Assembly: GCF_902859705.1 (NCBI RefSeq)
Contig: NZ_CADIJO010000002.1
Location: 124,001 to 188,000 of the forward strand
Direction of reading: 5' to 3'
Source of the DNA: Achromobacter deleyi
GTDB lineage: Bacteria; Pseudomonadota; Gammaproteobacteria; Burkholderiales; Burkholderiaceae_B
DNA: 64,000 nt
Shown: positions 4,511-56,799 of the stretch, one piece after another
Position numbering within the stretch: position 1 is the first letter of the stretch
How the letters are laid out: each line of letters opens with the position of its first letter
Notes under the pieces: model-generated
The model's input: the letters and a program-made list of their open reading frames with translations, nothing else
The model's database searches: none
What the model was told of the DNA's origin: nothing
Position numbers and translations under genes: made by a program

Positions 4511-4685
4511 GGGTTCTTGAGCCGCGCTTGGCGGTGTCGGCGGGTGGAGGGCGGGGCTACGATTGCGGTCCGGAGCCTTCGCTCCGGACTGCCCCGTCCT
4601 CATCCTCGTACGCCTTCGGCTCCCTACGGATTCCGTCGGGCGCATCTACACGCCCCGCCCTCCACCCGCCGACACCGCCAAGCGC
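4511..4685 (+). repeat. Dispersed palindromic repeat, copy A
   Basis: The shared leader GGGTTCTTGAGCC (4511-4523) is followed by a perfect 34-bp inverted repeat, 4524-4557 against 4652-4685, around a 94-bp core. The core has an invariant hairpin at 4568-4589 (GTCCGGAGC, loop CTTC, GCTCCGGAC) and a second CGCC-TTC-GGC region near 4611-4622. Copies B, C and D share the core and the arm ends but not the arm middles. It begins just after the stop of the upstream gene, so the hairpin may also act as a terminator. Short open frames exist here, but the shared feature is the structure. Confidence 0.9.
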
Positions 4686-4712
4686 TCACGATTACGATTA
4701 GCCGCGGTTGCT

Positions 4713-4853
4713 GGGGCGGGTGGTGTGCTTGGCATATTTATCCCCGTCGGAGTGGGGTGGGCGGGGTGGGGCGTTGCCCGCTTCGTGCCGGCCGCGCGGG
4801 CGGCCTTACGAAGCTTACGCGGCGTCTTGCGGGCGCTGATGACGCTCTCGCGT
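4713..4853 (+). repeat. Tail module of repeat copy A
   Basis: Two blocks downstream of copy A recur in the same order after copy C. One ends in GGTGTGCTTGGC (4713-4733). The other spans 4785-4853 and contains GCCGGCCGCGCGGGCGGCC and a following ATGACGCT. The second block is itself GC-palindromic. Copy D lacks it; a partial match to the palindrome occurs in reverse orientation at about 5072-5093, beside copy B. Confidence 0.7.
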
Positions 4854-5162
4854 GTAGGTGAGGATGTTGTTTTCTAGCGGCGCGGATGCCGTGGAGTGTC
4901 ACGTCAGTGTGCAGCGCCTGATGGGCGGCGCGCGAGACAGTCAGCATGCGCAAGCAGGACCCCGCCGCGCCGCCCATCACCGCCCCACCCCCAACGTGAC
5001 GAGCCACTAGAAAACCAATCTCCAACAGCGCGAAGCGTCGTCGCAACACTTTCCAGCAACGCAATGCCAAACGTGGCCGCCCGCGCGGCCGCGGCTTGGC
5101 GACCCTGCAGATTCCATTCCCCGCACACAGGTCTAGCAGCGCAACGATTCGAGACGCGCGTA

Positions 5163-5322
5163 GCCCCTCGCGGCGGTGGCATGCGGGGCGGGCAACCTCG
5201 ATGCGCCCGAGGGAATCTGAAGGGAGCCGAAGGCGGACGAAGATGACGAAGGGGCAGTCCGGAGCGAAGGCTCCGGACCGCAATCGTGGGCGCCCGCCCC
5301 GCATGCCACCGCCGCGAGGGGC
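5163..5322 (-). repeat. Dispersed palindromic repeat, copy B (inverted)
   Basis: A perfect 31-bp inverted repeat (5163-5193 against 5292-5322) encloses a 98-bp core that reads on the minus strand. The same invariant hairpin lies at 5257-5278. The middle of the arms differs from copies A, C and D yet is fully self-complementary. The leader GGGTTCTTGAGCC seen in the other copies is missing. With copy A it fills nearly the whole 873-bp gap 4492-5364, the two lying tail to tail; apart from the tail modules nothing else was recognised there. Confidence 0.88.
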
Positions 5323-5364
5323 GACCTACGAAGCACAAACAAACGCCAGCACGATCCAAATACC

Positions 5365-54674: not shown

Positions 54675-54728
54675 GGTGATTCCCCTTGCGTTGCCGTGTC
54701 TCACGGTCATGTGGTGGCGATGCAGCGT

Positions 54729-55730
54729 TCAGCGGCCCAGGCCAAAGAACGCCACGGTGTTGCTGAACAGAATCTTCTGCTGCACGGCCGGCAGCAGGTC
54801 GGAATGCGAAACCAGTTTGCCGACTTCCTGTTCGCCCAGCGGGTACGGGTAGTCGGACCCCAGCAGCACGCGGTCTTCGCCCATCACGTCGATCAACAGG
54901 CGCAGCGAACGCGGGTCGAACACGGCGCTGTCGACGTAGAAGCGGTCGGTGTAGGACGAAGGCAGTTGCGGGCAGTCTTGGCGAATGATGTCGCGATGGC
55001 GCCAGGCGTTGTCGACGCGGCCCAGCAGAAAGGCAAAGCTGCCACCGCCGTGCGCGAAGCACAGCTTCAGGCTGCGCGGAATGCGCTCGAAGGCGCCGGA
55101 CAGGATCAGCGACAGAATGCCAAGCTGCGTTTCGGCGGGCATGGCGACCAGCCAGGGCAGCATCCATTTCTTCATGCGGCCGTCGGTCATCATGTCCCAG
55201 GGGTGCACGAGCACCGGGATGTCGTCGTGGGCGCAGTGCACCAGGAACTGCACCAGCGTGTCGTCATCAAGGTCGCGCGGGCCGACGTGGTTGCCGATCT
55301 GCACGCCCAGGTGGCCGGCGGCGCGGGCGCGCGAGGCTTCGCGGCAGGCCAGGTCCAGGTCTTGCAGCGGCACCTGGGCCAGGGCCTTCAGGCGGGCAGG
55401 GGCGTGGGCGCAGTGTTCCAGCGCCAGGTCGTTCATGCGGGCGGCCCAGTCGGCCGCGGCCTGGGCCGGGTAGGTGTAGCCGAACATGACGGGGGTGGCG
55501 CACAGGATCTGCACGTCAACGCCGTGGCGGTCCATCTGCGCGACGCGCAGGGCCGGGTCCCACAGGGTGGCGTCGACGGGGCGGAAGGGGCGGTCGCCGG
55601 CCATGATCTGGCCGGTCGAGCCATCGCCGTCGCGCCGCAGCCAGGGGGCATTGACGGGGTCGAGCGCGGCCGCTTCCTGCCGCGTGATCGGCGGAAAGAA
55701 GTGGGCGTGCATGTCGATTTTCTGGGTCAT
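54729..55730 (-). CDS. nbaD: 2-amino-3-carboxymuconate-6-semialdehyde decarboxylase
   Basis: 333 residues from ATG 55730. The amidohydrolase metal set is in place: His8 and His10 (MHAHFFP), His176 (VHPWDM), His227 (FAHGGGSF) and Asp293 ([11 protein letters not shown]), as in Pseudomonas ACMSD. It converts the product of 3-hydroxyanthranilate dioxygenase to 2-aminomuconate semialdehyde. It follows that dioxygenase gene with a 133-bp gap. Confidence 0.94.
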
Positions 55731-55863
55731 GGGCAAGGCGTGCAAAAGGCGTGGGATGAAGGCGGCTTGTCGCGGGTTGGGCAACGGGATGTGCGAGGGC
55801 AAGCGCGGATCAGGCAAGCGGCTGTCGTTGGGCAGACAGCCAGGGTCAAACCAAGGCGCGGGG

Positions 55864-56415
55864 TCAGGCGGGCGCGGGCTGCGTGGCTGGGGCTTGCGCC
55901 TTGCCGGGGTGGATGGCGCCGCAGCCGGGGCAGGTGCGTTTCTGTTCGCTGCCGTAAAAGCCCTGGAACAGGGGCGGCAGGTCGGTGACGATGCTTTTCA
56001 GTTGGACTTCGACGCGGTGCACCAGGTGGCCGCAGTGGGGGCAATACCACTCGAAGCCGTCGAGCAGGCCCTGCGGGCGCTGGCGTTCGATGACCAGACA
56101 GGCGCTGTCGGTTTCAGGGCGCTGGGGGGAATGGCGCACGTGGGGGGGCAACAGGAAGATGTCGCCTTCCTTGAGGTCGACGCGTTCGGGCTTGCCGTCG
56201 ATCCACAACGAAAGCCAGGCGTTGCCGCGGACCTGGTAGAAGAATTCCTCGAGCGGGTCGTCGTGATAGTCGGTGCGGTGGTTGGGGCCGCCGACGACGG
56301 TGACGATGAAGTCGGCGTCCTGCCAGATCTGCTGGTTGCCGACGGGGGGCTTGAGCAGGTGGGCGTGGTCCTGGATCCAGCGTTGGAAGTTCAGGGGCGG
56401 GCCGTAGGCGGGCAT
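55864..56415 (-). CDS. nbaC: 3-hydroxyanthranilate 3,4-dioxygenase
   Basis: 183 residues. Iron ligands His51, Glu57 and His95 ([17 protein letters not shown] and [11 protein letters not shown]) match the Ralstonia enzyme exactly. The C-terminal rubredoxin-like site (Cys125, Cys128, Cys162, Cys165) of the bacterial form is complete. It opens the 3-hydroxyanthranilate ring. It is the first gene downstream of repeat copy D. Confidence 0.96.
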
Positions 56416-56620
56416 GTCGATCTCCGGGGAGGCTTGGGCTTGCTTTGATGATGGGAGTCTAGGCGGGTGGGGGGGCGGGGGGACAATAGAAATTGTGTGA
56501 TCAGATATGCGGGTTATCTATCGCGGGGTTTCCCTTAGGGGTTCTTTTGGGGCTTTCCTTTATTGCTTGTGTGGTTGTTGGTGATTGCTAATGTGATAGT
56601 TGGGGTGCTGATGGTGGGGT

Positions 56621-56799
56621 GGGTTCTTAAGTCGCGCGGCGTCGTGGCGGGAGGCGAACGCGGGGCTACGATTGCGGTCCGGAGCCTTCGCTCCGGACTG
56701 CCCCTTCGTCATCGTCGTTGTCGCCTTCGGCGACTGCCTTCCGATTCCCTCGGGCGCAATCTACACGCCCCGCGTTCGCCTCCCGCCACGACGCCGCGC
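56621..56799 (+). repeat. Dispersed palindromic repeat, copy D
   Basis: A leader GGGTTCTTAAGTC (11 of 13 as in A and C) precedes perfect 33-bp arms, 56634-56666 and 56767-56799, around a 100-bp core. The invariant hairpin is at 56677-56698. The second hairpin is GTCGCC-TTC-GGCGAC at 56720-56734, different in sequence from copy C but still paired. The A/C tail module is missing. The rest of the gap to 56969 is G-rich and holds a small GGCGGGCTTCGCCCGCC hairpin near 56891-56907; nothing else was seen. Confidence 0.9.

Follow-up and report, generated by a model that had tools for sequence, protein, structure and literature searches.

The window analyzed here, a 64,000-nucleotide stretch of the Achromobacter deleyi genome (G000:C2:124001-188000; G000, the own genome, comprises 6.81 Mb in 71 contigs), contains four copies of a dispersed repeat in which two outer arms pair perfectly within each copy and yet differ in sequence from copy to copy. 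A first-pass annotation had described this pattern, and we recovered the four copies where it had placed them, each with a perfect arm pair (34, 31, 33, and 33 bp) and all with an identical core hairpin, GTCCGGAGC-NNNN-GCTCCGGAC, which had 0 matches in 100 shuffles. Using a pattern search, we identified 70 chromosomal copies of this core hairpin in the own genome, 62 exact and 8 with one mismatch, while the reversed pattern gave 0 matches across the same genome.

Copy 1, on the plus strand, starts with a conserved left end of type A (TTCTTGAGCC; 4514 to 4523), followed by the 34-bp left P1 arm (4524 to 4557), the P2 hairpin (4567 to 4589), the P3 region of the core (4590 to 4651), the right P1 arm (4652 to 4685), which is the perfect complement of the left arm, and the P4 hairpin (4780 to 4814), which combines a variable outer stem (GCTTCGT/ACGAAGC) with a constant inner stem (GGCCG..CGGCC). 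Copy 2 is on the minus strand and forms a convergent pair with copy 1; by ascending position, it comprises P4 in its type B form (5066 to 5100), the 31-bp right P1 arm (5163 to 5193), P2 (5257 to 5279), the 31-bp left P1 arm (5292 to 5322), and a type B left end (TTCGTAGGTC; 5323 to 5332). The center of the pair, assigned to neither strand, is a 14-bp perfect inverted repeat, TGATGGGCGGCGCG/CGCGCCGCCCATCA (4919 to 4979), and this repeat recurs at the center of other convergent pairs. Copies 3 and 4 are on the plus strand. Copy 3 has its left end at 34890 to 34899, the 33-bp left P1 arm at 34900 to 34932, P2 at 34942 to 34964, a core with a longer TGCCTAGGCGGCCCCCCCC variant and P3 at 34965 to 35045, the right P1 arm at 35046 to 35078, and P4 (GCCTCGC/GCGAGGC) at 35171 to 35205. 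An optional core insert, CCT(A/C)GGCGGCCCCC, is present in 8 of the 70 own copies, which belong to different arm families; it occupies 34965 to 34985 in the window and is found in seven other copies. In copy 4, the left end (TTCTTAAGTC; 56624 to 56633) is followed by the 33-bp left P1 arm (56634 to 56666), P2 (56676 to 56698), the P3 region (56699 to 56766), and the right P1 arm (56767 to 56799); at this copy, we did not find the conserved 3' segment that carries P4.

Read in the orientation that places P2 near the left arm, the copies have a common order of parts: the left end, a P1 arm of 31 to 34 bp, a short junction ending in GATTGC, P2, a stretch rich in C, P3 (a small hairpin of variable sequence together with ATCN..NGAT), the sequence GC(A)ATC, and the second P1 arm. 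In the copy at L048, GC(A)ATC is replaced by GCCCTC, with GAGGGC standing opposite. The left end spans 10 to 12 bp outside the left arm, reads TTCTTnnG.C or TTCGTAGG.C/TTCGTGGG.C, and has its motif in 66 of the 70 own copies. To the right of the second arm, 58 copies carry P4 around GGCCGCGCGGGCGGCC, and the variable outer stem of P4 is paired over at least 4 bp in 48 of these. The unit including both arms measures ~160 to 190 bp, and the 3' part adds ~110 to 200 bp in most single copies; the sequence beside the right arm is common to 61 of the 70 copies and mostly ends 110 to 200 bp out in single copies. To the left of the left end, BLAST detected adjoining shared sequence in only 7 of the 70 copies, i.e., in the two tandem copies L029 and L030 and in five short matches of up to 57 nt. 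Based on arms and junctions, the own copies fall into three types (A, 34 copies; B, 28; C, 8). One explanation offered in the first-pass annotation was that the core had inserted into pre-existing palindromes. Because the conserved end is found beyond the left arm and, in 61 of the 70 copies, shared sequence is found beyond the right arm, the arms are internal to the element, and we reject this explanation.

Pairing of the P1 arms within and between copies

Perfect arm pairs are present in 45 of the 70 own copies (47 when counted with a second arm parser), and only 35 mismatches occur in 2256 base pairs, 9 of which come from one 1-nt indel in L019. The left arm is distinct in 59 of the 70 copies, and the complementarity of the arm middles is 0.981 within a copy versus 0.541 between copies, the latter figure being based on equal arm lengths only and excluding pairs with identical arms. 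With most copies perfect and most left arms distinct, the claim that the arm middles differ between copies yet match within them extends from the window to the whole genome. In the other genomes of the genus, it holds in part: the arms differ between copies, yet 74 of 119 copies are imperfect according to the parser and 45 perfect (90 of 189 overall), and part of this shortfall reflects other junction types that were cut wrongly by the parser. One tally of these 189 copies left out the 18 that have more than four mismatches, and here, as in the trio, ortholog, and change-spectrum tallies below, identical contexts were counted once.

To quantify covariation, we used an alignment (A1) of 43 copies chosen among those with at most one mismatch, a selection that raises the paired percentage, and scored the outer 13 P1 pairs, P2, and P3. 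In A1, 98.8% of 1203 cells are paired, one-sided standard changes number 0, and both-sided changes number 173 compared to 43.4 ± 6.2 in shuffles, with 0 of 500 shuffles as high. Such strong covariation would be expected of a structured RNA, i.e., if the unit were transcribed, which is putative, and P1, P2, and P3 were kept by compensatory selection on the RNA fold; the conservation of the fold across genera despite unrelated arm sequences is also in agreement with this explanation. However, G.U pairs are almost missing, with 3 G.T/T.G pairs in 2256 on the top strand and 18 G.U pairs on the bottom strand. Moreover, no Rfam family matches: at the gathering score, the whole window gave tRNA only, and a search of 4450 to 5400 at E ≤ 5 gave nine hits, all below gathering. 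Copy number within the genus also varies from 0 to 70.

The mismatches that do occur are asymmetric. Collapsed over all loci, they comprise 44 A.C/C.A mismatches on the top strand, which correspond to G.U on the bottom strand, compared to 10 G.T/T.G on the top strand; 12 T.C compared to 3 G.A; and 5 C.C compared to 0 G.G (copies with more than five mismatches were omitted from this tally, and five inner positions were also omitted from the strict count). In most mismatched arm pairs, the top-strand G, rather than the C, is the mutated partner. The 44:10 ratio could be taken to support an RNA read from the bottom strand, and we considered wobble tolerance of this strand as its cause. We rejected this candidate because the same bias is present in the T.C/G.A and C.C/G.G classes, which strand-biased mutation fits equally; the excess of bottom-strand G in non-wobble classes (G.A versus C.T on this strand, 12 to 3) looks like strand-biased mutation rather than wobble tolerance.

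Arm and core changes at orthologous sites

To follow arm changes over time, we compared copies at orthologous sites. Of 235 copies, 215 were parsed, and 78 orthologous pairs had left flanks that were at least 90% identical (mean divergence, 6.4%); the 45 pairs with equal arm length were counted, and the 33 with unequal arm length were left out. Among the 1472 P1 base pairs compared, 1345 are unchanged, 107 have changed on both sides, and 20 have changed on one side. In 21 control hairpins from the same flanks (13 that did not align were left out), 169 of 183 pairs are unchanged, 10 have one-sided changes, 3 have both-sided changes and are still paired, and 1 has a both-sided change that broke the pair. 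A Fisher test of P1 against the controls gave p = 9.5e-6 (not corrected for shared ancestry, with pairs that are not independent). Thus, paired change in P1 amounts to ~7.3% per base pair, close to the divergence of the flanks, and the per-site rate of one-sided change is ~ninefold lower. The paired changes comprise 49 transversions and 28 transitions (from the 24 of 83 pairs with one to five paired changes), and the unpaired changes comprise 21 and 30, respectively (from all 83 pairs). When collapsed by hand to one pair per locus, the paired changes still comprise 32 transversions and 19 transitions at 17 loci. Because the paired changes are rich in transversions, most cannot pass through a G.U intermediate. 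Together with their frequency near the flank rate and the near absence of G.U pairs, this disfavors slow compensation in an RNA and favors copying between the arms; we consider it unlikely that a structured RNA accounts for the matching.

Individual loci illustrate the process. At the copy 3 locus, GTGGCGG in the left arm of the own copy is GTGACGG in the G018 ortholog, and both arms have changed, so that a G:C pair in G000 corresponds to an A:T pair in G018; the G000 form is present in no other own copy. Which way an arm has changed can be read only at sites where one of the two sequences is the form common in the family, and this locus is such a site. The copies at L089 and L105 (from A. dolens and A. 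ruhlandii) differ by one single-nucleotide polymorphism in ~360 bp of left flank and are otherwise identical from the left end to the second arm, except for an additional G in the left arm that is matched by an additional C at the corresponding position of the right arm. We also searched for the sources of new arm sequences among the own copies. In 10 of 14 pairs of an own copy and its ortholog (9 of 13 loci), the changed arm stretches, scored as 11-mers, occur in no other own copy, so that no donor copy was seen.

The cores behave differently. In the close trio of G000, G018, and G023, for which 70 of 70, 28 of 35, and 22 of 25 copies, respectively, were parsed, only 2 of the 58 orthologous pairs compared have the same core, some of the differences being parser noise at the arm borders or single substitutions. 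In many of the trio pairs examined, the arms are the same and the cores combine recurring modules in different ways, for which recombination between copies is the simplest reading. Ectopic gene conversion, in which whole arm-core-arm blocks would be copied from other copies such that both arms change together, would account for these module variants beside unchanged arms, and it is in line with one arm sequence that is common to five own copies and with L028 to L030, where identical arms enclose different cores. However, the changed arm stretches mostly have no own donor, and at L089/L105 the core is identical and only the arms differ. Ectopic conversion explains the core swaps well and does not explain the new arm sequences, and as an account of the matched arms we regard it as improbable. 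Two side observations concern this material. L028 to L030 (G000:C7:43957-46900) are three tandem type B units spaced ~1.45 kb apart with trinucleotide-repeat variation in the linked sequence, and L128/L272 consists of the left half of a unit A fused at P2 to the inverted left half of a unit B, i.e., a collapsed convergent pair that has lost ~620 bp relative to L162/L273.

Distribution, arrangement, and relation to known repeats

Achromobacter is a betaproteobacterial genus, and we detected the core in 24 of the 25 Achromobacter genomes searched and in none of the 16 genomes of other families searched. Copy numbers within the genus range from 0, in G003, to 70. G003 (4.9 Mb) is the one genome of the 25 without the core and would be useful for finding a missing enzyme. 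Among the matches listed (at least 106 stretches), all 80 named contigs with the core are from Achromobacter. Using a covariance model (R1) at E ≤ 0.001, we obtained matches in 23 of 151 genomes from the family, representing 11 of 43 genera, including Achromobacter; at most 18 candidates were scored per genome, so that the copy counts are minimum values. A sample of 250 taken across the order, searched at E ≤ 1e-4 under stricter filters, gave matches in two genomes only, both of the genus. The copies from other genera have the same architecture with different arm and P2 sequences, and 10 of 26 arm pairs are perfect, with 28 mismatches in 770 pairs (26 of 27 hits were used, and the arm ends were chosen by the scoring itself).

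The units have a preferred arrangement. Within 1.6 kb of the 70 own copies, there are 14 convergent, 0 divergent, and 2 tandem neighbors, and convergent pairs ~0.5 to 0.6 kb apart are also present in other genera. Based on a rough gene caller using GC content at third codon positions, 6 of 146 units overlap coding sequence, and of the 136 units with both neighboring genes called, 68 are flanked by convergent genes and 5 by divergent ones. Where the left gene is co-oriented with the unit (99 cases), it ends at a median of 41 bp before the unit.

Evidence for mobility comes from the site of copy 3. Among 30 genus genomes read at this site (41 searched), a copy is present in G000, G018, and G023, where it is cut by a contig end, and the other 27 have no core. 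This distribution reflects either gain in that lineage or repeated loss, and gain is simpler. At the site of copy 4, five more distant genomes have a gap of 44 to 45 bp; in G018, this site (L314) carries a left-arm-like remnant without a core, which differs from the own left arm at a few positions. A precise empty-site junction was sought at the copy 3, copy 4, and L099 sites, and only diverged flanks or deletion derivatives were found. For spread by phage or plasmid, one pattern had no exact match in viral contigs, and copy 3 had no match in plasmid or phage collections.

This dispersal and the presence/absence at the copy 3 site are features of an ordinary transposon or miniature inverted-repeat transposable element (MITE) with terminal inverted repeats, the copies of which would simply have aged, and the short ends, TTC(T/G)T..G.CGC, stand in inverted order at both ends of pairs; only ~12 bp of the ends are alike between copies. 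However, the arms of 31 to 34 bp are mostly private to a copy and matched within it. Also, 30 pairs were found, and in the 27 with both ends located there was no target-site duplication apart from one chance-like 4-bp CTTG. Inside three wide pairs (L202, L155, and L127), in which we looked for an autonomous relative, there were only spacer open reading frames, one transposase that we take to be of the IS256 type, and one presumably LysE-like gene, and none is a transposase of the element's own. We consider this explanation highly improbable. The presumed IS256-like transposase gene (L155, 2309 to 3559) is inserted between the two units of its pair.

No trans-acting enzyme was found. A search for reverse transcriptases, as in copying by a retron, a group II intron, or a diversity-generating retroelement, gave 0 PF00078 matches in the own genome. 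The contig C48 of the own genome carries two nearly identical copies of a Y1-type transposase gene (237 to 241 aa; L182, 1450 to 2163, and L183), separated by ~1.46 kb. A GGTGTCAGACTACG repeat lies close to each copy, and neither is linked to the element.

Y1 transposases are associated with repetitive extragenic palindromes (REPs) and bacterial interspersed mosaic elements (BIMEs) as REP-associated tyrosine transposases (RAYTs), and, like the element, this system consists of extragenic palindromes that are dispersed in tens of copies and frequently form oppositely oriented pairs of units; the 14 convergent neighbors correspond to its inverted dimers. In REPs, the palindrome is preceded by a GT(A/G)G head (PMC2817692), and GTAG or GTGG is present at the left end of 34 of 36 type B and C copies but of only 4 of 34 type A copies, and GT(A/G)G was not seen at the other-genus copy ends examined. 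In contrast to REPs of 20 to 40 bp, the element measures ~160 to 400 bp, its arms differ from copy to copy, and it has internal P2 and P3 hairpins plus P4. A RAYT is flanked by its repeat, whereas no core lies beside the two Y1 genes of the own genome in the 3.3-kb loci read around them. RAYTs as defined by the criteria of PMC2817692 were found there only in gammaproteobacteria, and CGTC-tagged REPs are said to lack a dedicated transposase (PMC3733652). Since two of the four REP features tested fail and a third, the GT(A/G)G head, gives a mixed picture, we do not file the element under REP/BIME, although it works partly like a giant REP/BIME.

The integron attC site was compared on the basis of the bottom-strand fold: as far as the sources consulted describe it, recognition is based on the fold, prefers the bottom strand, and involves little sequence conservation. 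Unlike attC sites, which are arranged in a cassette array, the element is dispersed as single units or convergent pairs, and its stem is 31 to 34 bp. The enterobacterial repetitive intergenic consensus (ERIC), or intergenic repeat unit (IRU), and other MITE-like repeats are palindromic intergenic elements of 100 to 200 bp. The copies of such a family generally share one sequence, unlike the arm middles here, which are mostly private to a copy. A size for ERIC is also given in PMC2267715. The same 2008 survey reports Bor-1 of Bordetella, an intergenic structured repeat in a related genus, as a 117-bp model with 196 members in B. bronchiseptica and as 93 bp with 128 members in B. pertussis (PMC2267715). 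We compared Bor-1 by its description, and the parts of that description consulted do not mention variable paired arms (PMC2267715).

Probable folded strand and proposed copying between arms

What is conserved in the element is the structure, and the sequence of the middle of the P1 helix is free to vary. The hairpin loops are informative about the polymer. Of 244 copies read on the bottom strand, 229 have a P3 loop of the form GNA, where N can be any of the four bases, 241 close this loop with C-G, and 232 have GAAG, GAAC, or GAAA as the P2 loop. Of the 32 places parsed in other genera, some of which are spurious parses, 22 have a GNAB loop on a P2 stem of different sequence, and 21 have GNA, GNAB, or GNNA as the P3 loop. 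According to PMC5815330 and PMC8373063, stable loops in DNA include d(GNA) triloops closed by a C-G pair as well as d(GNAB) tetraloops. Folded as DNA, the bottom strand of copy 3, 3' part included, has a predicted energy of -116.3 kcal/mol compared to -84.5 ± 4.1 kcal/mol in shuffles. The DNA-type loops together with the scarcity of G.U point to a folded bottom DNA strand, and a single bottom DNA strand is the likeliest form of the element as judged from these sequence features.

We hold, with about even confidence, that the element is a non-coding, dispersed, and probably non-autonomous mobile repeat of Achromobacter and related genera, the arms of which are kept matched mainly by arm-to-arm copying and the cores of which are shuffled by recombination. 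The unit would act as a folded single DNA strand, namely the bottom strand, the top strand being the one that shows the left end as TTCTTGAG/TTCGTAGG, and the bottom strand would be recognized by its shape together with the conserved ends and hairpins. Matching of the arms would be maintained by copying, in that a change in one arm of the folded-back strand would be transferred to the other arm through template switching during replication or hairpin-templated repair. The cores would be swapped by recombination between copies, possibly after hairpin-induced breaks. Among the options listed in the first-pass annotation, an arm-copying process fits best, based on the changes at orthologous sites, the L089/L105 pair, the absent donors, and the change spectrum; its proposal of selection on RNA or DNA structure fares less well, with RNA disfavored by the 3 G.T/T.G pairs in 2256, the 0 one-sided standard changes in the 1203 cells of A1, and the excess of transversions.

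The DNA half of that proposal, selection on a DNA hairpin or cruciform itself through protein binding or the end of replication or transcription, would have single mutations compensated in the population and would involve no arm copying. The DNA-type loops on one strand, the nearly invariant P2, and the position of the units just downstream of stop codons and between convergent genes are all compatible with it. However, paired changes are about as frequent as flank divergence and one-sided changes are ~ninefold rarer, and at L089/L105 an indel is matched in both arms next to a left flank with a single polymorphism. We consider this explanation unlikely.

Several observations weigh against arm copying in a mobile folded strand. 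Matching is not absolute, as only 45 of the 119 copies in other genus genomes have perfect arms. The orthologous pairs share lineages and are not independent. Pure arm copying predicts the spectrum of single mutations, and the paired changes are richer in transversions (49:28 versus 21:30); hidden paired indels or block replacement may explain this excess. L089 and L105 differ at many places to the right of the second arm, making this a mosaic locus. Copying between arms can invert the spacer (PMC8604942), and no inverted core was seen, the left end being on the P2 side in the 66 of 70 own copies with the motif (inversions were not otherwise searched for). The predicted DNA folding energies of both strands are alike, and GAAG tetraloops occur in RNA as well (PMC8373063). 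Mobility rests on presence/absence at one site, neither a target-site duplication in the pairs examined nor a linked transposase was found, and the loci read around the two Y1 genes contain no core match.

Arm copying as a general process is already in print for RNA genes and yeast, where template switching has been reported to give paired stem changes without wobble intermediates and to homogenize arms (PMC8794818; PMC8604942). As far as these sources describe them, such events were inferred in RNA genes and yeast genes, whereas here the process appears to dominate arms of 31 to 34 bp in a bacterial family with tens of copies. Within the open PubMed Central literature searched (subscription journals were not covered), we found no description of the element, and a family of bacterial repeats in which arm copying dominates, with its DNA-type loops and large conserved fold, appears to be new. 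Beyond the first-pass annotation, the analysis added the 70 copies, the convergent pairs, the core swapping, P4, the DNA-type loops, and the family-wide distribution.

More tentatively, we suggest that the inherited unit may be the fold rather than the sequence. The element would then persist and spread as a folded single DNA strand, the machinery would read only the ends, P2/P3, and the shape, and P1 and P4 would be continually rewritten in place by arm copying, such that sister copies and species come to have unrelated, internally matched arms. Covarying base pairs are usually taken to prove a functional RNA, and here extreme covariation looks DNA-made. If this is true, the family, with its many copies, would serve as a natural assay of hairpin-templated arm copying in bacteria as well as a warning for RNA discovery by covariation, and it points to an enzyme that reads a large DNA fold.

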